Origin: Tomocerus qinae
Taxonomy: Eukaryota; Arthropoda; Collembola; Entomobryomorpha; Tomoceridae
Length of the DNA: 64,000 nucleotides
Assembly: GCA_020055645.1 (NCBI GenBank)
Contig: CM034546.1
Span: 105,855,812 to 105,919,811, forward strand
Direction: 5' to 3'
Positions 3,814 through 64,000 of this stretch are shown here, piece after piece; position 1 is the stretch's first letter; every line of letters begins with the position of its first letter. The notes under the pieces were generated by a model that was given only the letters and a program-made list of their open reading frames with translations, was not told the origin of the DNA and did not search any database. A program made the position numbers and the translations under genes.

Positions 3814-6800
3814 TTATAAAATTGCAATTTGTCCATAGAGTAGACTTCTAATGAGGTAATATTCATCTGACAATCCTTCCACATTGATAGCAACTCTGCC
3901 GTCTGAAATCTGTATCAAAATCGGACATAAGCAAACGTTTGAATATAAAAGGTAACATCAAAGAGTTGCAATTAATTGGATAAATAAAGACATACTTTAA
4001 CTGAAACAACACCATTGGCACTAGTACATCTCAGTTCATCATCCTTTAATTCAGATTCTAATCCATTTTTTGATAAAAGCTTTTTAAATTCATTCAGTTT
4101 CAATTTGTTTACGTACATTGCATCGTGCGGACTTGTCTGTTTAGTAAAACGTTGATTTAAAATGTGAACATGATTGCCTCCACATTATGGGTATCTAGAA
4201 ATTAGGAAGAGCTAAAAGCCTTTGGTTAACGAAATATGAAAATACTTACCTCGGAAGAAGTTAAGGGTTTTAAAACGGGCACCAGACTTTGCGACTCCTC
4301 AGATGAATCACTACCTTTATCGGGCAAGCTAACTGTGCCTTCACACCAAGCCAGTTCCATCCCATTAAGCTTCTTGAAATTCAGAGACCCCATCATTGTA
4401 TCGCTTATTTTCATCTGTGGATAAAAATTTGTGTGAATTGTAATAGCTCAATTATGTTTATAATCATTTATAATGTTTGAGATATGAGACAATATTATGA
4501 GAAGTGAGAAGAAGAAACTGACCTCATAGATTTTTCTGTCTTTAGTTAAGTCTACAGTAATTCTAAATTGCGGTACAAAAACAGTGGAAACTGGAATAAG
4601 TTTATGTGTCAGGGCTTCCAATGCTGCAATTGACTGTATAGAGCCTTTGACGAGCAACAGCTTCTTTGGCTGTATCTGTTAAAAATTATAAGTAATTATA
4701 ATTAAGTAATTAATACTAAAAGTTATAATCTGTCAACTCACATCGGATAACATTTTTAACATGGATTCTATGTCCGAACGTCCTTCGAAGTCAATAAAAT
4801 ATACTTGGCAGTTGACAGCAAAAGGCTGCTTAAAACAAATTGCTTTAGTAGGATTCTCGTCATCGGTAACAGCAGAGCCTTTTCCATTTCTTTTGTCTCT
4901 TTTGCATTTACTTCCACCACTGTAATTTAGTTTTTAAAGCAAGATAAAGATTATCATTCATAGAATTTGAATCAATCATAATATGCAAATGGAATGGGGA
5001 ATAAGGCTGACCTATCAGCATTTTTCATGTGCTCAGTCTGTTTTCGATTACGATATTCTTCTAGCTCTCTTCCTTGCAAGGGTATTTTCTGTCTAACATC
5101 CAATTCGATAAATTTATATGTGGCAGGGTCATCTATTAAATTACGGCCTAGAGTTCCAGGGCTAGTTCTACTTGTAAGAATGACACAACTTCTCGGATCA
5201 TGACACCATTGCATGAAAAGGTCTCTCGAGAATCCACACTCCAAATCCGGAGTGCTTGCTAATACAACCTGAATTTATAGTAAAGATTTTATCAGAATAA
5301 ATAAGACATTTTACATAATCTCTCTCCTAAAAAAGACTCACCTTTGGGGCAGGAATTTGACTAAGTTCAATCAGACTATGACATAGAATAACATTACGTA
5401 GAATGAAAGGGTTTGGTTTCTCCATGGTACAACTTTGACGTAGTTTGTCACTCATCCAATCCATCTTCATGTAAAACATAATCATATTCATGTCATTTTG
5501 CATACATTCTGTAGAAGATTGGATTTTAATGTAGAATTTCAATCATGATTTCCAGCTTATTGACTTACCTGTAATTTAGCCATTTCTATCAAACTAAAAG
5601 CAACATTACTGAGCAGCACTATGGAAAACGGTGCTAAACCAGCATCTTTCATTCTCCACATTTGATCTAACAATAACGTGAGTTCCAATACTCTTCCAGC
5701 ACTGTCAACAGCTACAAGTGCATTACCCCCACTCCGTAAAGTTCGACCAAGAGCAGCTGCACATATATTATTAGCATTCATATTATTAACACCTTTAGCA
5801 GACGCGTATAAGCTTCACTGTTCTAGCCTAATGCGAATTACCTTCGCGAAATGTAACAATTCAATTCATATTCATATTATAATATCCTGTACCTATAAGC
5901 ATTTCATCCCTATGTCTACGTTTTTCTTGAGTATATAAAGTGTTAAAAGCATTAGTAATCAAAATTCCGGGTCTTTGAATTTTATCCCATTCACAACCTG
6001 CAAGATATACAAAGAACAGCAATATAATACAATTATTATATTGAACAAAGACCAATAAAATTTGAAAAGTGAGTATAATTAAGTTTAATTACCGTTCAGA
6101 TGTCTTTCCTTTTTGTTATTATGGTCAATAGCATAGTAAATATCTTCTTCGCCGACTTTTGCGATTCTCCATATACTTCCTCCTAACATATGCCCAGCAG
6201 GTAATGCCGTAATGGAAATGCCCTTGCCTGCAAAAACCAAAGGTGCGATGAGACTTAGGTAACACAGTTATAGGCAAGCATTTAAATTTTACTGCACAGA
6301 ATACTACTAACTGATATTTATAATCTTACCTTTGAAATTGTAAGGGGTATTGTACTCCATTTGGTGAATTTTCCCAAAGGCTTCGTCCACGTCATCCAAA
6401 TTAAAGAGCTGAAAATCTTCTGTATTGTTCCTGGACAAAAACCAATCGTACATGAACATTTGTCCCATCTTGAACACAGGTTTCGTGGCATAAACCGGAC
6501 AAGAGAATCCGCATTTGGACACAAGGTACGGAAGAGCCCCTAAGTGGGATGTATCGGGATGTGACAACAATATTGCATCGATTTTTCCGGCCATTCTAGA
6601 AAATTCAGTGTATATTTTTGGATATTTGCATTATAGCTTATTTATATTCGGTTTTTAGTCAGTTGTGCATAAGTAAACGTATTTGCTTTTATACTTTTTA
6701 AGCTCTTTGATATACTCCATGTCAAATTTTTCATCCCATCCGCAATCCAGGAGGAATCTAAATTCATCTATTTGGAGTAAAAAGCAAGGCGGAGTTTCTG

Positions 6801-45211: not shown

Positions 45212-48200
45212 CATTGTAACATATCCAATTTTTTCCATGTCCATGACAGTTTTAATAGGACGAAGCCTTATGCAGCCCTAAAATTAGGGGTAGGTACGAC
45301 ATGATGATGCAGATTATCTCAATCTACACCTTAGATTACCTGCTTTCACAAAGACTAATCCTTACTCAAACTATTTTTGGCCAAAAATCATTGTTATAGC
45401 AGGTGTAGAGGAGATATTACATTTTTAGTAAAATTGGTTTACTAGCTAGTTTTAATTTATATTCGTCACCATTTGTTAGAAATCTACGTAGAGCGCTAGT
45501 GCGTTGTCACAGCTAGGTTCAATAGTATACCCTTAAACATATCTATCTGATATACTTAGTGTGAAAAGTATATTAAAATTAAATCAGACCTTGTCAATTT
45601 ATAGACTTTACAAATCAGTAAGGGTATTTTTCATGTTCAGTCGCAATAGTTGCATTTCAATGTTTAGTTACCTAACGTAACTGCACGACCGTAATTAAAT
45701 GTCATTTGTACGACGATGTGGTGTACACATATTATTGCATACCTTCGTTTTTAGGCCAAGATTCGAGAAAAGTGACATTTTTAAGCAAGCATTGAGATTT
45801 TTGGACTCGTGTTAAGCATGTGGTCAATCCAAAAATTAAGAGTATTAACGTAATAATGATACTATTATTACATAAGGTGCTATTGTTAAACCTAGATTTC
45901 TGCATTTTCTTTTCATGTTCAAGTAATTTCAAATAAAATATTTGTTGAAAGGGTAAATAGGATAAAGTAAAAAAATATAATTGTAATGAAGAAGTACATA
46001 AATCGAAGCTAACCAGCCCCATCGAAGCGACTGTCGACTTTAATGCCATATTAGCCACTAAATGCATGGCTAAGGGACATTAGTGTATATCAAGATATTA
46101 TTGACAACTATTACTGACCTAACTGACAATTTTGTTGGTATTTTGTATTGCTCGCATTAATTTGGCAAAACCGCCTAGTAATAATTAAATATACTTTCTG
46201 TGACAGAGTCACTGGAATCTTCGTAATTTGAATTTGGGTAATCTAGGTAATGCCTATTAGGTATTATGTACTGTAATAATAGAAATTTGACCCAAAATAT
46301 GGTTTGCGAAACATTTGAATACGCTGGACGTATTTGAAGGTTCTGCAATTAACAATTGTTTAACCTCTTGTAGGCATCGTTAAAATCCCTAGCGTATGTA
46401 GTTTACAACGTAGCTAATTCGCATAAGTTCGCATTTACCGTTAAATTATTAAAACTCTACTCTTCGTAGTATATTATTATATATATATAATTGTGTAAGT
46501 ATATAGGAATAGCTTAAGAGTAGGATTTTGAAATTCAACCTTTGACATCTATCCAGCCAGTGCAGTGAGTGTAGTGTAACGCTTCAAATAGACGGAAGCG
46601 CTGAATATCTGTCGCTCAACAGGTTCTAAACATAATGGATAATATTTAACAATTAATAATAATCCATTTTAACCTAGCCTAGCACAACAGTAGCACAGAT
46701 AATTGGATCATTCGTTAACTTGTTTTAATCTTCATTTGGCATAAAGTTTTAGTGGAATGTTTCACTGACATTGTTGTCAATATTATTTCACTGTTCAACG
46801 ACTGTAGTGTAGCAGATATTTAGTTGTAGTGTTTAGTTATAAACAGAAGAATCGTAATTTTATTTTGTAAATCATTAATTTATTGTTTAGCATTTAGCAG
46901 TGCTGTTTTACCACTGCCTTACTTCTTACCCGCAATCAAAAATTCACAACAAAAATCCATTGCATTTAAATGAGAAGAGATTTAAGCAAAATGTGGAATT
47001 AAATTATTGTATTTGTTGTATTTTTCACATTGAAATTCAGTATTGTAACCGTTACGTAGTTTTGTTTAGTTAAATACTATTCCGATAATTTGGGTCGCCC
47101 TTTTACATTTCAATTCGTAATATATTATGCGTATGATTGAATTAAATGTTTTTATAAACTATATTACAATCAATCAACAATTCTTCCAAGTAATACTCTT
47201 ACGACGAACTATCAATGGTTTCGTCAGGAATTATCGACGCCATTTGCCAAGACTAATTCAAAATTGATGAACATGGGAAATGATAATAAATTCAAAATGT
47301 CAATAATTGGTTTGCAACCGGAAACAGCCTTAAAATAATCACTCGCCTGTTAAAACGTGTTAAATCATTGTTAAATCTAAGTACTCTGGTTTCAGAATAC
47401 TATAATATGTTATTGGTGAATGATTTTTGAACATAATAAAAACTAAAACCTAATTTTCATTCTTTCAGGTAGAGAATGGGTTATTTTTAGATGAATTTAG
47501 GTTGACAGGCAATTAATTGGTAATAATATAATGCATTGGTTTGATGATTAGTTCTAAGAAACGTATTTATTGAACAAAAGATGTACAATTTTATTGCATA
47601 GCTATTATGCATAACAATACATTTAGTACACAAGAGGACGTGACAACGTGACATAATGTATAGAAAAGGTCTGATAGAAAGTGGAGGGTTATGTATGACC
47701 AATTGGTGGTAATTACAATTCAATAGAGCATATCGACTCATCCGAATTTTGAAATAACTACTTACTCACACAACAGAATTCTAAAGGAGGAACATTAACA
47801 TTTACTAATACTGCAATTAAAAATATTCATATAAAATTGATGTAAATACAAAAGTGGGGTAACTAATTCGGAGTTGCCTCGGTCTATAGACTTCAATCAA
47901 ATAAAGTAAACTAGTATCGCCCTTGTATACATTGGTCTCGGTCTAACAAAAGGTTCTGGAGCACTTTAGACACATCGGAGATTCATTAAGCCCCCTTCCT
48001 TAATAGCTGATAGTGCAGAAATTAGCAGCAGCTACATGTAGGTACATTCTAATTTATGGTCTAAGAATGATATACGACAAGACAACCAAGGCCCATAGGG
48101 AAAAATATATCTGTAAATAATAACATATTATAGCAGGCAAATCTGAAAATGCTACTTAGGCTAACGATAACAATAATGGACGTATTGTAATTGTAGTTTG

Positions 48201-48323: not shown

Positions 48324-48511
48324 TACCGTAATAATCGAATTAATACCTCGGGGGAATTATAGTTTCATGGCCATCTTTTGAGCAAGAAAAATCGATATAG
48401 TTCCCCTACCGGGGAATTATTTCGAAACGGGGAATTATTGTTTCAAAGTCAAGATTTATTAGATTATCAATGCATTATTTTAAAAAATTTAAAAGTTTTA
48501 TTAAAATGTAA

Positions 48512-48904
48512 TTAATTTTCTTCGTCAGAGGAGAGTAATACGTCCATAGGTTCCGTGATATTCACATCCATATCATCATCGTCCGAGGGCAGCAAAATGT
48601 CATCCTCGTTAATCAATGGCTGTTCCATTTGTGAAAATTGATTGCACTGCTTTAACCTTTCCAGTCCTTCACTGCAATCTTTGTCTGGTTTAAAGGCAGT
48701 GATCAAAGGATCCTCACTTCCATCCACGTCCCCAACTGTCCCACACCAGCAGTTTTTTCTGAATATATTTCTTCCAATGACATATGCACTGGGTCTTCTT
48801 GGAGTCAAATATAATCGTTGTTCTCTTCCTTCTGCCATTTCAGATTTACTGTGGACTGCAACTATTCTACCTTTCAGTACCAATGATTCCTTTCTCTTTT
48901 AGTA
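48512..48904 (-). pseudogene. truncated open frame inside the pogo-like element
   Basis: About 130 codons remain open to a stop at 48512. The frame has an internal ATG, a middle part with CWCGTVGDVDGSEDPLI, and an acidic C terminus (LLPSDDDDMDVNITEPMDVL) of the kind often found at the end of pogo/Tigger-type transposases. The upstream coding region is cut by the nested element starting near 48908 and no further coding is seen beyond it. Identity as transposase is inference from context. Confidence 0.4.
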
Positions 48905-48907
48905 CAC

Positions 48908-49198
48908 ATCAAGGCAAATAGACTGATTCCCGCCCCCTCTCCCCTCCCCGCATCAGGTGGGTTCAGTAGAGAAAGTCCCATAAGAGAGTTTGAGCTTTTA
49001 TATGGGACTTTCTTTTGAAATTAGTCCCATTCCGGAGTCCCATTCTGGTCCCAGTAGTCATGGATACCCACCCTTCAGGAGTAAATGCAAGTCCCATATA
49101 AAAGTTCAAACTCTCTTATGGGACCTCCCTCTACTGAACCCACCTGATGCCAGGGAGGGGGAGGAGGGAGGGGGCGGGAATCAGTCTATTTGCCTTGG
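48908..49198. mobile_element. fold-back element nested in the pogo-like element
   Basis: Arms of about 100 bp (from CAAGGCAAATAGACTGATTC to the complement ending GTCTATTTGCCTTG) flank a 60-80 bp loop. The arms contain GC-rich CCCGCCCCCTCTCCCC and TCCCATAAGAGAGTTTGA blocks with their complements. It interrupts the open frame of the host element, so it arrived later. Confidence 0.8.
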
Positions 49199-49417
49199 TG
49201 TTGGTACACATGTACTTTTTACTGTAAATACACCTGTACTTAAACTGTAAATACATGTTTTAGTACACACGTACCAAATGCCCTAAATTTTGACCGGGGA
49301 ATTATTTCGAAACGGGGAATTATACTTTCAAAGGATGACATTTACGGGGGAAAATCGATATAGTTCCCCTACCGGGGAACTATTTCGATACGGGGAATTA
49401 TATCGATTATTACGGTA

Positions 49418-50136: not shown

Positions 50137-53100
50137 CTAATCTTCTTCATCTGACTCTTCATCAGATTCGTTAATATCCGCCTCGTGAAGACGATCGACA
50201 ATGAATTCCGAGTGAGGAAGATTTATAAATTCTGCATGAAATTCTTTTGGAATTATTCCATGCTCACACAAATCTTTGAGATCCTTGTACTTGTCGTAGC
50301 TGATTGGCAATGGACTGTCATACGCTTTCTTTACTTCAAAATTCACAATAGCCTTTTCTAAAGTTGGACCAAATATCTTGACCTGGGATAAAAATGAATT
50401 ACTTTGTTTAGTGTCATGTCATATAATATTATTAAGTTGTTTCTTTGTAAAAGTCAAACTTACCATAAGATCAGGACTTTCAAGAGGTGGTTTCGATAAC
50501 CTTTCTTTCTTGACCGGAAGTTCAGATTTTTTGGCATCCTCATCTCCTCCCATGACCTTATCAATGTTATTTTCCGTTCCAATAACCTGTTCGAGAGTTG
50601 CTTCGATGGCCTCAGGTACTCGAATCTTGATATTTATTTCATCGTCCATTTCTGCTGTGTTTACTATTAATTCTTCCGGAATCTCTACCTCTATCTCAGT
50701 AGAGCATTGTGGAAGAGGCTTCACATCTACAATTTCACTTTCTTCATTTTCAGTAGATTTATCTACGGCTTCCTCAACTTCGTTTTGAACTTCTTCTAAA
50801 CTAATGGCAGTGGAAGAATCTCCTTGTTTGTCTTCTGTATCATCATTGGGTTTTTCATGAATCTCTTCATCCTCATCTTGTGCAACTGGAACTCTAACTT
50901 TTCTTGGCCGTCCCCTTCGTCTGGGAAAGATTTGAATTTTCTGCAGTTTTTTCTTGGGCGCAATGACAGGAGTTTTTTTCCTATGGCCATACTTTACTGG
51001 AGGGTTGGGTAACATTGGAGCATTTAGGTTATAGTTAATCACAAACTCAGAGTCCATAAATTTTTCCATTCGAATATATCGAATTTCCTTCCATTTAATC
51101 CACTCTCCCCTTGTGTGACTCTTGGCAAACATTATTCGATTGTTCATTTCATAATTCCAGTCTTCAAAATCGTCATATAGTAGCCTGTGAACATTGTAGT
51201 CTGAACATCGTGATCGTGAATTCCTAATTAGAGCTGGCCACTCGGTGTACGAAAAAGTTTTACTTCTTCGCAAATTCTTTTCAACAGCTGCATGAGGGCT
51301 TTCAGACGGAACGTATTTATGCCCAGCGAGGTAGAATTTAATTTCAACTTTATTTACCCATTTACTATTGTTGATAAAGTAATAAAGCATACAGTAAACC
51401 ATTTTATTGCCATTGATTCCACCTGGAACATCATGCATATTCAGTATAATGCTTGAGTACTTTCCCGAAGAATCCTTCGTTTTTAGCCATTTGTGAAGAC
51501 ATGTAGAAATTTCAACGCCGGCCATATTTCCCTCCGTCTCTCCCCACAAGTAACAGGTAACTATTCTGGTTTTACTTTCGAATATTGTCAAATTATGCGT
51601 GTGATGTTTCCGACTGCAGAAAAATTCTGGACTATCCCCATTGGGACTTGGTATTACTTTCTGGATATCAAGAGAAGCTGTCAGACTCCCTTTGCTTCCC
51701 GAACTTTTCCGATCAATTAGCAGAACATCTTTGGTGATTTGCTGATCTCGGACGTGTCTCTTGTATCTCTCAAGTGGTTTTGGCATCGCTCCGTATTTAG
51801 TGCAAATGACACACTTGTCTTTTTTAGGCTGGTGAATCTTCACATCAAAATTTGATACAACTCTATTGAAAGTTACTTTGCTCACTTTTTCTATTCTGTT
51901 CTCTTCACAGTGACGTCTGTACATTCGGAAGAGCGTATCGAAATCTCCGACCTCGGTGTGAAAGTACATTTGGTTAGAACTTGACCGACAATTGTGAGCA
52001 GCTAGCACAGGTATCGTTCTTAAGAACAATTGCACTTTTTCAACATAAGGTATTCTGATTAAAGCTGCTGCGGCCGCACTGATTGCTTCTACTGCTGACT
52101 CTTCGGTTAACGTCGCCGAATTTGAGTTTTCACTGGTAACAGAAGATGCAGAATTGTGCTCACTTGCTACACTACTCTTTTTGGCTAGAGATTTGGCACT
52201 GGCACTTCGTGCTGCTTCTGCTGCTATATTGCTTAAAGCTGCAGCTGCAGTTATTCCCCGAAGTACGGCTGCTGCCGAAGGACCACTTAATGATGCTGCA
52301 GTTGGAACTCCCAAAAGTTGATCGATTCCACTCAGTTCAGCAGTTCCAGTTTTTTTTGTGCGTCTGCTTTTCCCAGCATTTCGCAAGGCATAATTCAAAG
52401 CCCCTTCTCCATAGCCCAGGGTGCTCAGGAAAAATTTCTTGCAAACTGCCATATCACCCTCCACACCTCGAGGAAGATAATATTTGTAACTAAAATTTCG
52501 TCTATCCGAAGTTGTTCTTTTTCGTTTCACTTGCACCAATTTCACATGCGCTAATATCCAATCCTTTTGCCGTGTATCATCTGCAATTCCCCAGAAATGC
52601 TCAAATATCATTTTTCTTTCCACTTCTGTCCATCGTTTGCAGTTATTCGGGCAGTTAACACAGGTTGAAGGTTTAATTTTCCGAGCTTCTACCAACTTTT
52701 TTGTCGATCTTGAAATATATGACTCTCCTTTGCAACGTTTTTGCTTCTGTTCTAATTTCTTGCTTATTTTGTTACGTGGGATTCTAGGAGATTTGGTGTT
52801 TTTCGGAGTTCTAGGTTTTCGTTTAGGCTTTTGGACAGTAGGATCCTGTGTAGTACAAAGTACAATTACAATATGTACTTTAGCTGACAGGTTTTAGTCC
52901 GAAGGTTGTTTTACCAATGGGAGAAAAAATTTATTAAACAATACCTGGTGATGTTTCTGCCAAAATTCTGGATTTGTCATATTTAAACAGTGAGATCCGT
53001 TATTTTGCATGCTACTGGAAGGCCCTGGCGATGAAGTTGAAGATGCACATTCGGAAACTGTTGAATTGAAATTGTAAAAGTTTTAAAATTAGCCTAATGC

Positions 53101-54651
53101 AATTTAAAAATACTAAATATTTGTAAATCCACTCACTTGAGGAAGACAGAAAATGATCCATATTATGCATCATGTTGTTTTCGTGGTGATGCAATTCAAT
53201 TTTCTTTCGTTTGGGCGTTTTTTGTCCATTAGCGTCTATATTCTCCGGGTTAGGCGGTCGTCCTCTCTTTTTTTCAGTCTACACAGATATTGGATTTTCA
53301 TTACCGTATGACACGTAATATGAACGGGGTCAAGAAAATCAGGATATAAGATCTACGAGGTATTCAAAGGTATTACTTACAGATACTTTAGCAAGTCCAA
53401 CAGCAGCTAGACCTCCGGAAATTAATTTCCCTACGTTATCCAATAAACCCCCACTTGTTTTATTATGCTGTGGTGGTTGATAGCCTTGCTGTGACCACAT
53501 AAAAAATATAAAAATAAATTGTGACAATTCAAAATGAGAAAATTTGTAGCAGAGATAGCAAAAAAAATTTAATACCAATAGTCCAGTTCCAGGAACAGAA
53601 TAAACTCCTGTTGGCTGTTGCGGACACCCAACTTGTTGTTGAAAACCTCCAGCTTGTTGAAGGTAGGGTCCAGGTGCCTGATTTCCATAGCCTGTTGGAG
53701 GGCCTGTTGGTGGAGAATATGCACTGGGTGGGTAGTGCACAGGGCTGTTGGATTCTTGCGGATACGTCGGTACAAAATTCATTGGTGACATTCGCGAATC
53801 ATTTCCTGTTTGGTATGAAGGTGAATAAGTTGCTACTCCCGGACCTGGCGGACTTGTTCCGGCAAACTGGATTAGAGACACACTGATATCTCCATCAATA
53901 GAAATATTTGATACTCGTTCTACAGGAACACGATGATTGTATTCCGTAAAATGTTGACCGTTTATAGAAATCTTAAAATATAAACATTACACTGTTAACA
54001 TACAATAATTCACTAATAAATACTCAAAAAGAATAGAAAAAATAAGAACCCCACCTTGAATTGCAGCTCATCGCAAATAATAATAACTTCGAAATTTTGC
54101 CCCCTTATAAATGGAAATGGCATTCCACGGATTCTTTCTTCGATTCCCCAGCTTGAATAATTTCTTGAATTTCGAATTACGGTGCTCTCGGTAATACGGG
54201 GATTTAAGTGAAGAGCAATATCGCTGAGACTTGTACTCGGGCCACATTGTAAATTAATTGAAAATCTAGGTAATAATGTCAAATTTATATCCTTCTTCAC
54301 TATATTATATCACCGCAACTTTAGGTCATATTATAATAAAAAGTTGGCTTACGAGATTGCTGCCGGATTAATTTTCCCTTGAATTCTAACTATTCTTCCA
54401 GGTCGGAAACCCCCACAAATATATCCCGTATAGGGAATTGGCTGTAAGTAAGTAAATGTGAGAAACCTTCAATTTAATCCGCTAAAGACTTTAAATCACT
54501 CACGAAACAAAGTTTTGTTTACACGATCGCAAGCAAAACATAGATGTACCAAGAGCCATCAAGTCATAACTTCCAGAGATAGATTAAAATGTAAACAAAC
54601 GGAAATTAAAGATTTAGATCAACTTACAGGATTGTACACAGGATGATCCAT
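50137..54651 (-). CDS. predicted chimeric protein: galectin domain, PPxGY-type tail, AT-hook, transposase-like domain (9 exons, 1236 residues)
   Basis: Exons 54651-54628, 54441-54353, 54265-54055, 53971-53576, 53488-53381, 53278-53137, 53057-52945, 52845-50464 and 50382-50137 join in frame. Residues 9-150 are a galectin carbohydrate-recognition domain with HLNPR (57-61) and WGIEER (77-82). Residues 150-276 are Pro/Gly/Gln/Tyr-rich and end with a Gly-rich segment (GGLLDNVGKLISGGLAAVGL). Exon 6 adds an AT-hook-like KKRGRPP. Exon 8 starts basic, has CVNCPNNCKRW, an Ala-rich spacer, then a region resembling RNase-H-fold transposase-like proteins common in insects (SLDIQK, CYLWGETEGNMA, HAAVEKN), followed by an acidic tail; exon 9 ends GIIPKEFHAEFINLPH plus an acidic end. 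The galectin and transposase parts could instead be two genes. Intron 5 retention stops at 53339, giving a galectin-only form of about 289 residues. Confidence 0.62.
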
Positions 54652-55795: not shown

Positions 55796-56449
55796 CTAGT
55801 TTCGAAGAAGCGTTCCAAGGCGACTTTGCAATTGTTTCAATTCTTCATCTTCAGATTCAGCTGTGGTATTTGCAGATCGCGTCGGCAAATCGTGTGAAGC
55901 AGCCGCCGGAGCCTTCCCGAGTTGACCAGCAGTCAGTTGCCATAAAACATTATCAACTTCCTCATCAGCAGCTTCCTCTAAATCAACATCTTCTAAATCA
56001 TCGAATGCATCTTGGGTCATCTCTTCCAGAACTCCAGCTTTCGTCATCTCTTTAGACAATTCTCGCATGGACGCCGCAATCTGTGGAAGTTTGCACAATT
56101 TCTGAACAGCTTGCATCACCTCGGTAGACTGTTTTAAAGCCCCAGCTGTTTTCAAAATAGCTAACTGTTCTTTCATGTGAAGCTGGATCGAATTCAAATG
56201 GGCCTTTGAAGTGTAAATTTTGCTGATAGCTTTTTTAGATCGAATGAGCTCTTTCGCATAAATACGGCAAATATCTTTATCACCTTTCCTAGCTGCTTCC
56301 TTTAGAGACTTTTTTATTTTCTCCTCCTCTCTCTGGATTCCCCGAATTTGTCTGTCGAGAGTCAAACTTTCTTTACGGATCCTACGAGTCCAGTCCAGAA
56401 CTTGCGTCTTTGGGTCTTTGTCCTTGTCGGTTTTTCCGAATAATCCCAT
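55796..56449 (-). CDS. CHMP3: charged multivesicular body protein 3 (ESCRT-III subunit Vps24), single exon, 217 residues
   Basis: Forms ESCRT-III filaments with CHMP2/CHMP4 on endosomes and at membrane abscission. Starts MGLFGKTDKDKDPK and has the basic helix-1 signature IRKESLTLDRQIRGIQREEEK. ARKGDKDICRIYAKELIRSK, SKAHLNSIQLHMKEQLA and MRELSKEMTKAGVLEEM follow. The acidic autoinhibitory region and a C-terminal MIM-like helix (EDEELKQLQSRLGTLLRN) complete it. Length is close to the human protein (222). The absence of introns, unlike every other ordinary gene here, could mean ancient intron loss or retroposition. There is no disabling change, and no poly(A) tract was noted next to it. Confidence 0.95.
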   Translation of the reverse strand: MGLFGKTDKDKDPKTQVLDWTRRIRKESLTLDRQIRGIQREEEKIKKSLKEAARKGDKDICRIYAKELIRSKKAISKIYTSKAHLNSIQLHMKEQLAILKTAGALKQSTEVMQAVQKLCKLPQIAASMRELSKEMTKAGVLEEMTQDAFDDLEDVDLEEAADEEVDNVLWQLTAGQLGKAPAAASHDLPTRSANTTAESEDEELKQLQSRLGTLLRN

Positions 56450-58625: not shown

Positions 58626-61373
58626 TTAGATTTGTGTAATATTATGACAGGTTTTAATTAGTGCGTTTAAACTATTGCTAATACGATTAGTGAGTGAATA
58701 TTTTGCATTGTGTAGTATGGTGGAAAATGTGGGGATTTGGAGTTGTAGATAGACATCTGTCATTTTACAATATTTGTGTTTATAGAAAATAATCCTGATA
58801 GCATTATTGTATGCTATCCGAACTTTATTGGATAGGGAGCACGAGATCGACCATAGTGCAGAACAATATATCGAACTTATGTATGTTTTAAATAATTTAA
58901 TTTTAATCAGATTGGAACAGTGGCCAAATTTACTTTGTAAACAGTATGCTCGCTTATAAAGCTCTGCAATTCTATGAAATACCTCTATATCATCACTCCA
59001 GACTTTACTATTATAGTATTTTTTAGATTGTATGGTGTATCCTAAGTACTTAACATGTTCGCTAGGGTATATTTTTTCACAGCCGAATTTCACATGATGG
59101 TTGGCAGTGGGTAGCCAATTAGGATGAAAAACTAGTAAACTAGTTTTCGCAGAATTGAAGGAGAGACCGTGTGAGGAAGCATAATCACTGCTGATTCTTA
59201 AAAGTTTTTCCAACGAGTGCACTGTTGTAGAAATTAGACAGAGGTCATCAGCATAGTTCGCGTTATTTGTGGGACAGTTGTGTACAGTAGATCCAAGTTT
59301 AGATTCATTCAGTTGGATAATGAGGTCATTCATATAAAGATTATAGAGGTAGGCCGATAAGACACCACCTTGCTTGACGCCTGATTTCACCGGGAAGGGA
59401 TCCGAAATACAGTTGTCCCATTTTATCTGAAATTGTTGCGAATAGAACCAGGAGCTTAGTAGGTTAACAATTGTAGCCGGGAAACCTCGACCTCTGAGTT
59501 TGTCTAGGAGGATTGAGTATTGAACGCTGTTGAAAGCCTTAGAGGCATCTAGGAAACAAAGATTCACTGGGGTATTATTAGATTTATAATGGTTGACTAT
59601 CTTTTTGACAGTAGAGATGCACAGCTCAGTACCATGAGCTTTTTTGTAACCAAACTGATTTTGTTCCGTAGTGAACAGGTTCATGTATCTTTGTAGAATA
59701 AGTTTCTCTAAGATTTTAGAGCAAATGTTTGCTAGAGCAATGGGCCGATAATTGTTGGATGTGGTTGGATCGAGGTTCTTCTTTTTAAGGGTGGGTAGGA
59801 TATTGACTAGAGACAATTGAATAGGGATGTGTTCATGGCTTACACACAGGTTGATGATTTTCAGTAGAGCAGTTTTAACTGTCATAGCCGATTTCTTAAT
59901 GTTCATAATGGAGAGACCATCAGGCCCAGGAGCTTTTTTCTTATTGAACTTTATCAGGACATCACTAAGCTCCGCCACAGTGAACTTAGTATGTATAATA
60001 CCATCAGAATTGTCAGACTCTGCTTGCAAAGGCCTTGGCGTTTGTAGGTTTTTATCCTCAAATTGTGACATGTAATGCCTTCTCCAAGTGTTGAGTATAT
60101 CAGCAGTGTTGTTACAATTATCGATTATAGGCGACGGGGCGCAGTTGGATCCATTTTTACTGATATAGGACCAGAAGTCATTCGTATTTCCATTAAGTAG
60201 AAGTGTAGCAAGGTCTTCATCATGCTCAGACTTGTTTTTCCTTTGGCATCTACGTAGGGCACTTTTAAATTTGTTTTTAGCTAATTTTACACTACCGAAA
60301 TCAGCATTGATGCTGATTAGGTACTTGTAGTATTTGTAAGAAGTATCTACCTTCGTTGACCAGTTGTGTAGGGTAGGGATTCCCGATTTTCTTCTAGAAT
60401 TTAAGGAGGCAGAGTTCTTTTGTATAGACTTGGCTGCGATCATCTTATCAGCACATAAAATATTTTTAATGAGATCAGAATATACTGACTCGATTAGTTG
60501 TTTGTGATCTACACTAGAGCAGCACGGAATGTTGCAGGATATGGTTGAAAGACTTGTGAGAGCTGATTTTCCAAATATATTTGTCACGAGCTCATAGGAG
60601 TTAGCATCCTCGTCAGTAATTTTATTCCAGCAGATACGTTGAGATGGAAGCTTTTTCTGTATACGGACAGGAACCATTTGACATTCCACATTGAAGGTTA
60701 ACGGTAGGTGATCACTGGGAGAGTCTGACAGAAAGGAGATATCACATATTTTGGAGCTAATAGACATACTGGCAAGTAGGTGATCAATCCAGCTTTTACT
60801 ACCAGTCGCAGCACAGGTATAGGAGTAGGTATCTTGCTTCAGCACGGATGTATCTAGCATAGTTAATCCAAGTTGATCACAGGTATCATTTAATATATCA
60901 AAATGAATTTTGTGAGAAAGACGGTCCAAGTTGAAGTCACCACATACAATAATATTATTGAATTCTGAATTTTGTATATAGCTGGTTAGTTTACCGATAC
61001 AATCACTTTGCTCTTTCCAATTATTTGCAATCGGCATATATACATTAAATAATATAAAGTCCCCGAATTCAACTGCACAAATTCTGTTATCTTCTAGCAT
61101 TACCTGATTAACAGTAAGGCTTAGATGTTTTTTCCATAAAATAGTCACTCCACCAAAGGGCCTTCCACATTTTAATACTGTGTCGTCCATCGCTGAGATT
61201 GAAGCACTATTGTAGTTTTCATTGATCGAGTCGAAAATGTGGGAGTCAGCGTTACGTAGCCAGGTTTCTTGTAGGGCTATTATATCATAATTGTGTTCAC
61301 TGTTTAAGATCCAAGGGGCATTCGTTTTTGCATTCTTACAGTTCCAGGAGACTATTTTTAGTTGTGTACTCAT
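58626..61373 (-). CDS. LINE ORF2: apurinic endonuclease and reverse transcriptase, 915 residues
   Basis: Nicks the target and copies element RNA at the nick. The endonuclease N terminus shows SWNCKNAKTN, LQETWL, GDFNLD and SDHLPL (catalytic Asn, Glu, Asp and His motifs). The reverse transcriptase shows KKAPGPDGL, NYRPIALANICSKILEKLI, QFGYKKAHGTELC, LDASKAFNSV, GVKQGGVLSAYLYNLYMNDL and the catalytic NYADDLCL. No frameshift or stop interrupts it, so this copy is young or under recent selection. Translation probably follows ORF1 by reinitiation at the overlapping ATGA. No RNase H domain is visible after the reverse transcriptase. Confidence 0.93.
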   Translation of the reverse strand: MSTQLKIVSWNCKNAKTNAPWILNSEHNYDIIALQETWLRNADSHIFDSINENYNSASISAMDDTVLKCGRPFGGVTILWKKHLSLTVNQVMLEDNRICAVEFGDFILFNVYMPIANNWKEQSDCIGKLTSYIQNSEFNNIIVCGDFNLDRLSHKIHFDILNDTCDQLGLTMLDTSVLKQDTYSYTCAATGSKSWIDHLLASMSISSKICDISFLSDSPSDHLPLTFNVECQMVPVRIQKKLPSQRICWNKITDEDANSYELVTNIFGKSALTSLSTISCNIPCCSSVDHKQLIESVYSDLIKNILCADKMIAAKSIQKNSASLNSRRKSGIPTLHNWSTKVDTSYKYYKYLISINADFGSVKLAKNKFKSALRRCQRKNKSEHDEDLATLLLNGNTNDFWSYISKNGSNCAPSPIIDNCNNTADILNTWRRHYMSQFEDKNLQTPRPLQAESDNSDGIIHTKFTVAELSDVLIKFNKKKAPGPDGLSIMNIKKSAMTVKTALLKIINLCVSHEHIPIQLSLVNILPTLKKKNLDPTTSNNYRPIALANICSKILEKLILQRYMNLFTTEQNQFGYKKAHGTELCISTVKKIVNHYKSNNTPVNLCFLDASKAFNSVQYSILLDKLRGRGFPATIVNLLSSWFYSQQFQIKWDNCISDPFPVKSGVKQGGVLSAYLYNLYMNDLIIQLNESKLGSTVHNCPTNNANYADDLCLISTTVHSLEKLLRISSDYASSHGLSFNSAKTSLLVFHPNWLPTANHHVKFGCEKIYPSEHVKYLGYTIQSKKYYNSKVWSDDIEVFHRIAELYKRAYCLQSKFGHCSNLIKIKLFKTYISSIYCSALWSISCSLSNKVRIAYNNAIRIIFYKHKYCKMTDVYLQLQIPTFSTILHNAKYSLTNRISNSLNALIKTCHNITQI

Positions 61374-62463
61374 TGTTGGTAGTTACTGTCGAGTGTACTG
61401 ATTATTGAGTAAGAACTACTTCTACGGGATGTATTAATACGATCATTTGGAGAAATACATTTCACACTCTGTGAAACCGCTATATTGTCAGGGTTTGGGT
61501 TTCGCCATCCGGTTTGCGAACGCGGGAATGTCCATCTTTTGACCAGAAGCCCTTTTGGCCAATTATTGGCATCCACAAAGTTTTCATAGGGAATATCTTG
61601 CTTCAGCAGGGTGATTCTCCACGAAGAGTAACTCTGTAACTGAGATTTTACAGGTAGCTTAGTTATTTCTTGAGGTGTCCATCCATTATCCTGTAGGATT
61701 TCTTCAACAGTTTTCGCAGTTGCATTGACCACAAATCCAGATACAAATATGTGGGCTCTCGGCGGAAGTGTTGGCTTGCGTACGATTTTATCTTCATATT
61801 TTGTTGACTCTTTTACGCCACGTACAATAATCCTGGGTCTAAAAGAGTTGTGTTCCAGACGTTGTTTTTCATTTACATCTACAGAAATTGGGGCTTGATC
61901 CTCATCATGTCGAATCCCTCTCAATAGCGCACTGCTGTAACTATCAGCACGGCGGCTTGGGTGTACACAGTTATCCATCTGTGGTGAGGTAAGATTTATA
62001 TTATTTAACTTTTTTGTCAAGTCACTGATGATAGCACTAGAGTCATTTGTCTTCTGGATTAGCTCGTCCAAACCATTTGAGTTGGCTATTAGGCTTCGTA
62101 AGGCTTCATCTTGCTTTTGTAGTCGACTGTTAATGGTTTTGAATTGCAAGGCTATGTCAGCAGCGACAGCTACACTTGGATCAGTCGATGGTAGAATTTT
62201 TGTGGCACAGAAGATAAAATGTTCATACTTAATATCATTTAGGATCTTGAAGAAGAGCTTACACAGTTCAAGAGGACTTTTATCATTATTGGTAGTTATT
62301 TTCACATGCTCCTTGGTGTGGATCGCTGCGTTCAATAATGCCAGGTTGCTGTTGATAGCTTCAGGTGAGAAGTTGGAGGTTAGGAGTTTGGACACAGTGT
62401 TAATGTCATGACCTTCTGTCACACAACAGCGAACATAGCTCAAGACATCACTAATAACGTATG
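61370..62463 (-). CDS. LINE ORF1 (RNA-binding/chaperone type), N-terminally truncated
   Basis: Open for about 364 codons to the stop at 61370, without an in-frame ATG near its 5' limit (a stop lies just upstream, around 62464). The N-terminal half looks helical with a possible coiled coil (LQFKTINSRLQKQDEALRSL). The C-terminal half (HIFVSGFVVNATAKTVEEIL ... NWPKGLLVKRW) resembles the RRM-like nucleic-acid-binding fold of arthropod LINE ORF1 proteins. No CCHC zinc knuckle was seen. Confidence 0.75.
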
Positions 62464-62612
62464 GATTTTTTTACTTATTATTAAAGTTATTTTTGTGCCA
62501 TATAGACATATAAAAATTACAGACACTTTCTTCCTGTTTGGATTCCCGAATAATAATTACGAGACAATAAGTACCAGTTAAATTTTGTTTGAGATTCGTT
62601 ATAATATTATTA

Positions 62613-64000
62613 TTAATCACTGTCGGAAGACGAGCTACTGGAAGACGAGCCACCAAAACCTTTCATTCCTTTTTTCAAAGCATAACCACCGAGCCCAACT
62701 CCAGCTAAAGGAACTCCGTACTTCAACATTTTGTTCTTCTTTTTGTGTCCTTTCAATGCTTTCCCCTTTTATAAATCAAAAAAAGTAAATAAATGCACAA
62801 TTTTGACTTTACAAGGGTTACTTAAAGTTATGACTTACCGCGACAGCGCCACCGATGCCTAAAGCAGCAGCCGACCCTAGGATACCGCCCATTTTGCCCA
62901 TTCCTCCTCCGCCACCACTATGATGTCCCATTCCCATTCCTCCACCTCCATAACCGTGACCATGACCATGGCCTCCACCCATTCCTGGAATTTTACTCTG
63001 TAAAAATAAGATAAAAGTTATACAATTTTCAGGACATCCCTTAACAATTGTTTCAATAACATAAAATATAATAGAATAATAACTTACAGCAACTTTGGCG
63101 AGACCAACGCCAGCTAATCCTCCAGCCAACATTTTTCCGGCGTTGTCCAAAAGTCCACCTCCTTTTGACCCACCATGCTGTCCTTGAGGGTATCCTTGTT
63201 GCTAAAGGATCACAGGCATAACACTCAAATTAGAGAAGTTAAAAAGGGTTAATAAGAATTTGTTTAAATTAACGTTACAAAAAAGCAGTCATGATTAAAT
63301 TATTACTTATTCACTGTATTTATTTGCTATAAAAGCTGCAGTCAGCAAAGGAGCTCATTGAGAAGAAAAAGATTCAAATATGTTACAGATAGTACAAAAA
63401 ATAGATTAAGGAAAGCGTATAATAAGCAATTTGCCTGCTGATAATATCCGAGGCCATTATGAGGCTGCGTAGGATAAGTAGGATAGCAACCGCCCCCCGC
63501 AGACTGATGCTGGTGATAAGCATTCTGTGGAATTTAGATAAAACCATTATAAATGTGCATAAATGTGATGTGAAATGTGCAAAGCTTTTATGTAGCTCTT
63601 AATCTTAGTCATATAAGTATGACTGCATAGTAAAGAATACCAAAAGCAATTTTGAGTTTCTTATAACATTAATACATAAGACATTACAAATTGACAGGCA
63701 CAACTGAAACAAAAGCCACTTTGTTTTTGAATTGAGTGAAAATATTTTAGATTTTTTTGTATACCAAAAGTGGTTTATAAGTAATTACCGGGTAGCCAGG
63801 TTGTTGAGGGTATCCTTGTTGTGGATAACCACCGGGAGGTTGATATGGATATGCTCCTTGGTTGACATTTCCTGGATATCCCGCAGTTGGAGGTACGCCT
63901 CCTGGATATCCTGCCGGAGGAATGTTTGATGGATATCCAGATGGAGGAACATTTGACGGGTAACCTGCTGGAGGTACATTTGACGGGTAACCTGATGGAG
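62613..64000 (-). CDS. paralogue of the galectin-gene tail: PPxGYP-repeat, Gly-rich protein; 5' part outside window
   Basis: Exons 64000(partial)-63789, 63524-63435, 63201-63088, 62997-62839 and 62765-62613 join in frame. The first visible exon is a run of PPxGYPSN repeats. Then come NAYHQHQSAGGG, and GGLLDNAGKMLAGGLAGVGL, almost the same as residues 250-276 of the chimeric gene at 50-54.7 kb. Next are a Gly/His-rich segment (GGGHGHGHGYGGGG), a second Gly-Ala hydrophobic stretch, and a basic segment ending in an acidic poly-Ser tail (SSSSSSSDSD). Its 5' end probably encodes a galectin domain, but that lies outside the window. The intron after 63435 uses a GC donor (CAG/gcaaat). The PPxGYP repeats resemble flexible membrane- or calcium-associated tails; the function is unknown. 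Confidence 0.8.

Follow-up and report, generated by a model that had tools for sequence, protein, structure and literature searches.

A tandem galectin gene of Tomocerus qinae probably fused to domesticated Sola2-like transposase exons

The window investigated in this study is a whole stretch of 64,000 nucleotides of DNA of Tomocerus qinae, forming part of a 140-Mb contig in a genome of 334 Mb. An exon-by-exon rebuild of its minus strand from 54651 to 50137 gave nine exons and eight GT-AG introns, of 186, 87, 83, 87, 102, 79, 99 and 81 bp in order, which together yield a single frame of 1236 codons (Table 1). Exons 1-5 of this gene, called galectin-2 here, contain a complete galectin domain with a PPxGY/glycine-rich tail, and exons 6-9 add 960 codons in frame to the TAG ending at 50137. 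A sister gene, galectin-1, lies in tandem upstream of galectin-2, and its 5' part extends past the window edge. The two galectin copies are separated by a single-exon gene of Snf7 type (Pfam E 1.9e-35), presumably CHMP3, and, between that gene and the sister galectin, by a LINE harboring an open 918-aa frame with Pfam endonuclease and reverse transcriptase domains, which is preceded by an open 366-aa frame. Approximately 3 kb upstream of the sister galectin, we also noticed an apparent tandem repeat (L018, about G000:C1:105923559-105924293), judged from repeated peptides that are open in several frames. The motif names AT-hook for KKRGRPP and NLS-like for PKRKK are those that we take to apply.

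Table 1. Features of the galectin-2 locus and its surroundings (window positions)
Feature	Position	Strand	Description
Sister galectin-1, 3' part	62614..64000	-	own terminal exons 62997-62839 and 62765-62614
LINE	58626..62470	-	
Snf7-type gene	55796..56449	-	single exon
Exon 1	54628..54651	-	galectin-2 start MDHPVYNP; phase 0 donor; counterpart in sister gene MDPPVYNP
Exon 2	54353..54441	-	galectin domain
Exon 3	54055..54265	-	galectin domain core; HLNPR, WGIEER
Exon 4	53576..53971	-	galectin domain ends; PPxGY-rich stretch
Exon 5	53381..53488	-	glycine-rich module GLLDNVGKLISGGLAAVGLAKVS; GTAAGT donor, phase 0
Intron 5 (junction)	53279..53380	-	102 bp, without AATAAA/ATTAAA
Exon 6	53137..53278	-	AT-hook KKRGRPP and NLS-like PKRKK; in-frame stop immediately 5'
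Exon 7	52945..53057	-	Ser-rich linker; coding score -1.0
Exon 8	50464..52845	-	794 codons, transposase-derived
Exon 9	50137..50382	-	C-terminal transposase-derived stretch, acidic tail, TAG

The galectin domain occupies residues 11-143 of the fusion protein and is nearly complete, covering model positions 1-131 of 132 with a Pfam E of 6.9e-39 and a score of 132.8 bits against a cut-off of 22.1. Its closest solved structure is galectin-9 (3wv6), with an E of 1.6e-55, followed by galectin-8. The motifs HLNPR, VIRNS and WGIEER were all found in the galectin-2 protein, and we take their residues to be sugar contacts. The window protein shares HxNPR and WGxEER in the galectin domain with other galectins, but here a proline-rich stretch comes after the domain and is followed by the 960-aa transposase-derived half. 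Comparatively, 106 of the 145 amino acids over the aligned codons are identical between galectin-2 and its sister, with a dN of 0.16 from the NG86 method, which yielded no dS for the saturated domain. Exon 5 was compared with the sister exon over 36 codons (dN 0.30, dS 1.56), suggesting that it has been kept as a coding exon. The galectin duplication is old, since dS is saturated in the domain and reaches 1.56 in exon 5. Judging from these comparisons, galectin-2 is both old and under constraint. Two further galectin domains were found elsewhere in the genome (L001 and L002, at G000:C4:20361541 and 20374516), in similar frames and with other open frames adjoining, which to our eye resemble beta-propeller repeats.

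The early exons of the sister gene match those of galectin-2, and its exon 5 is alike. In the sister gene, the exon 5 donor is followed after 90 bp by two terminal exons. A tblastn search of the whole window with these two exons revealed no counterpart past exon 5 of galectin-2, the good matches being the sister's own copies; the first terminal exon is glycine-rich, and a much altered copy of it could escape such a search. No separate end is thus known for galectin-2, no terminal exons of the sister type having been found after its exon 5. We infer that galectin-2 lost these exons, rather than that the sister gained them later.

The preliminary description of this DNA had proposed that exon 5 ends in a phase 0 donor, that the next acceptor, also in phase 0, opens an AT-hook exon without an ATG at its start, and that exons 6-9 continue in frame for about 960 codons. 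The rebuild bears out each of these observations. Exon 5 ends with TCT at the boundary at 53381, followed by GTAAGTAA; the acceptor ATATCTGTGTAG precedes ACTGAA at 53278 and opens the exon encoding KKRGRPP; the AT-hook codons come before the first ATG of exon 6; and the frame is open through to the TAG at 50137. The phase match by itself has a chance expectation of about 1 in 3 and is weak evidence alone, since about one third of joins would fit. The junction is raised above chance because the two halves are mutually incomplete and lie only 102 bp apart, a normal length for an intron of the galectin-2 gene (79-186 bp) and a very cramped one for an intergenic gap.

The incompleteness of the second half is seen at its beginning. 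An in-frame TAG abuts exon 6 on its 5' side, and the 35 codons of the AT-hook region before the first ATG of this exon score 16.1 bits as coding, with the other five frames at -3.0 or below; scores of at least 16.1 bits were recorded for 321 of the 19,384 overlapping open stretches in the window, true coding counted in. Since a stop abuts exon 6 and the AT-hook codons precede its first ATG, the exon probably depends on a coding exon on its 5' side that ends in phase 0. Among the 127,996 residues of the window's six-frame translation, the pattern [KR]x0-2RGRP turns up at three sites: in exon 6 and in exon 8 of the galectin-2 gene, and at 59336 on the plus strand. The acceptor of exon 6 has a weak pyrimidine tract. 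Exon 7 gains no compositional support, because its coding score is -1.0 in its own frame against 3.6 in one reverse frame.

These observations bear on the possibility of two adjacent genes, in which galectin-2 would read 13 codons into intron 5 and the transposase gene would begin with an unseen first exon. Read-through of the exon 5 donor indeed gives 13 codons and then a stop, an AATAAA lies within exon 5, and standalone domesticated transposases are, as a matter of general knowledge, common. The AATAAA/ATTAAA signals nearest to intron 5 are this one, at 53464, and one in intron 7 at 52935, so that the gap between the supposed genes would be 102 bp only and without either signal, with a stop abutting exon 6 and an AT-hook that precedes the first ATG yet scores as coding. 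In the 5.2 kb upstream, eight stretches run from an ATG to a GTRAG donor in phase 0. Four belong to exon 1 and exon 4-5 of the galectin gene; the four outside it, at 56.6-57.8 kb, would offer first exons to a separate gene; they comprise one start with two donors (57.8 kb) and two starts with one donor (56.6 kb). As 24 other stretches of 5.2 kb contain 0 to 37 such candidates each, the outside candidates are at about chance level, and the first-exon scan therefore decides little. On balance, we regard two separate genes as decidedly unlikely.

It is also conceivable that one locus gives two forms, through a promoter in intron 4 or through exon skipping, so that most or all of the galectin domain is missing from the transposase-derived product and the full fusion makes up a minor share or none. 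Within intron 4, an ATG at 53500 keeps the frame through exon 5 to its donor and would bypass the galectin domain, and the donors of exons 1, 3, 4 and 5 are all in phase 0 and hence compatible with exon 6. However, the constrained galectin domain with exon 5 would then have no terminal exon, and none was found. We consider this arrangement unlikely. The reading that we hold to be probable is that of one host gene, in which galectin is fused to domesticated Sola2-like transposase exons.

Turning to the second half of this gene, exons 6-9 are single copy in the genome at the DNA level. At the protein level, exon 8 gave 61 matches in the genome at E up to 10, including itself and split pieces of loci, drawn from the 57 scored out of 224 first-look candidates. 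Among the matches listed, the relatives of exon 8 are 20-35% identical to it, with 28% for the best-scoring one, and the alignment of 29 relative loci extends from the Cys-rich beginning across the core, several of them spanning part only. Exon 8 itself comprises a Cys-rich zinc-finger-like region, an Ala-rich insert, a DDE-like core and a second AT-hook, RRRGRPRK, and the resemblance to the transposase relatives continues from it into the C-terminal stretch of exon 9. The exon 6 part had no other match in the genome at E < 0.05, which suggests that the AT-hook exon may have a non-transposon source. No relatives elsewhere were confirmed in the viral or prokaryotic contig collections, a result without bearing on conservation in animals. 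With regard to known families, exon 8 alone matched DUF7869 with 12.7 bits (E 0.094), below the Pfam cut-off of 26, and the whole fusion protein gave no DUF7869 match at E up to 1. Two of the three relatives tested passed this cut-off, with 53.1 and 49.4 bits, and L031 had no match. A sequence search of exon 8 against the PDB found no match (best E 1).

The tree placed the window protein beside L031 and L025; its branch measures 3.45 changes per column, a length that makes its position unsure. When unconstrained change was simulated, 105 of 1000 copies were still open at 2%, 6 at 5% and 0 at 10%. That all 960 codons are open despite such a branch therefore implies, as far as the sequence can tell, constraint on exons 6-9. 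This speaks to whether a transposon has recently inserted into the galectin gene without any host function. The genome is rich in related elements, some more than 99% identical mutually, and a 34-bp match to an element end (E 0.016) lies inside exon 8. Nevertheless, the DNA is single copy, the protein relatives listed are 20-35% identical, introns separate exons 6-9 and the frame is entirely open, so a recent insertion is hardly credible.

For the source of exons 6-9, the ends of related elements were studied in 10 copies of 2350-2359 bp from two families, seven of the L035 kind and three of the L024 kind; this examination left out L033, which is 77% like L035, and the remaining fetched loci. 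Their inverted ends match end to end over about 48-73 bp at 83-92%. Perfect 4-bp duplications flank nine of the ten copies, with none at L037, and seven of the nine are of AWWT form (ATTT, ATAT, AAAT, AATT) and two are AGAT. Some related elements are more than 99% identical among themselves, suggesting that they were recently active. In PMC3627910, Sola2 is described with 4-bp AWWT target duplications. We call the source Sola2-like because the relatives combine such AWWT duplications with inverted ends, and some of them exceed the DUF7869 cut-off. A Sola2-like origin of exons 6-9 fits these data, the label being taken from element ends, and another superfamily that makes 4-bp duplications could also be the source.

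The relatives with Sola2-type ends align to much of the length of the window protein. In contrast to them, the window gene is single copy, contains introns, has a changed catalytic signature and shows no convincing element ends. When the surroundings of exons 6-9 were compared with the ends of the two families, the best match was the one in exon 8, at 50731-50764. Among 23 pairs of inverted repeats at 48-54 kb, none was convincing as the element ends of exons 6-9; a 37-nt pair with 70% complementarity, whose arms lie at 48108-48144 and at 53349-53385 on the border of exon 5 and intron 5, was taken as chance. Nested inverted repeats occur at 48324-49417, including arms of 44 and 42 nt that are 93% complementary, and amid them lies a minus-strand frame of 128 aa (48512-48898) with no Pfam match at E 0.1.

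Of the presumed catalytic acids, the first Asp (fusion residue 754) is in register with the element family in two separate alignments, and the second (833) is aligned in one and one position off in the other. The signature SDxCxGQNNN of the relatives has become HDVPGGINGN in the window protein, and CDR has become SES, with the Glu after it kept. Because of these changes, an active nuclease is not to be assumed, and the window protein has probably ceased to function as a transposase. The preliminary description had seen a mobile-element block captured as new 3' exons of a galectin-PPxGY gene, bringing DNA-binding and RNase-H-like parts. The block does sit in frame, and its source can now be narrowed to Sola2-like elements with relatives in DUF7869. 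The AT-hooks are present, and an RNase-H-like fold in the exon 8 region would follow from family resemblance alone, with its catalytic signature changed.

In the arrangement we propose, a tandem galectin duplicate without the sister gene's two terminal exons would splice from its exon 5 donor to exons 6-9, which would encode a domesticated, single-copy Sola2-like transposase. The predicted product is leaderless; its galectin domain comes first and is followed by two AT-hooks, an NLS-like stretch and the Cys-rich DNA-binding-like region of the transposase. Galectins are made without leader peptides, and some of them occur in the nucleus. The fusion protein would most likely be nuclear and serve as a transcription factor or chromatin factor. 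Its target sites on DNA, which may be the ends of transposons, would be selected by the transposase half, and partners would be bound by the half with galectin and PPxGY; enzymatic transposition is unlikely. A nuclear DNA-binding role is our best guess because of the two AT-hooks, the NLS-like stretch and the DNA-binding-like region of the transposase. More specifically, the fusion might be a sequence-guided chromatin protein of the nucleus, whose transposase half recognises the Sola2-type ends scattered through the genome and whose galectin half binds a nuclear partner that is glycosylated or has affinity for galectins. We put this forward as an unlikely speculation, which, if true, would tie the recognition of glycans to the control of transposons or genes.

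The nearest known parallel is CSB-PGBD3 of primates, in which, according to PMC3902484, a piggyBac transposase in intron 5 of CSB serves as an alternative 3' terminal exon, and which is old and conserved. The fusion proposed here shares with it a transposase spliced as the 3' end onto a host gene. The two differ in that the transposase is piggyBac there and Sola2-like here, that the fusion there exists alongside the complete host protein as an alternative form whereas the search here revealed no second end for the galectin, and that the transposase part carries its own introns here. The host partner of CSB-PGBD3 is presumably a SWI/SNF-type protein and not a lectin. Host-transposase fusions of vertebrates constitute a wider class (PMC8700633). 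The proposed capture at galectin-2 would be of the same kind, with a different partner (galectin) and a different source (Sola2-like). Cosby et al. (2021) reportedly showed that vertebrate host genes captured transposases to give new DNA-binding proteins. To our knowledge, the host-transposase fusions described so far use other partners and other transposon superfamilies, and we know of none with a galectin partner. The open-access literature, followed through titles and abstract openings, contained no work on a galectin-transposase or a galectin with AT-hooks among the matches listed; the best 12 of 1,157 matches included no Sola-derived host gene, and DUF7869 had no match.

A galectin partner with a Sola2-like source would thus be new on both sides, and the fusion would offer a way to test if chromatin can recruit a sugar-binding module. 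Since the genome contains many related elements, the question of DNA targets can be put within one organism. The same genome also harbors a locus, L021 (about 3949-4608, G000:C5:11385544), where a frame with the Cys-rich N-terminal region of the transposase alone was detected, at 27% identity and E 2.3e-10. With no match to the transposase core within the fetched 9.5 kb at E 0.1, L021 is possibly a second tamed copy.
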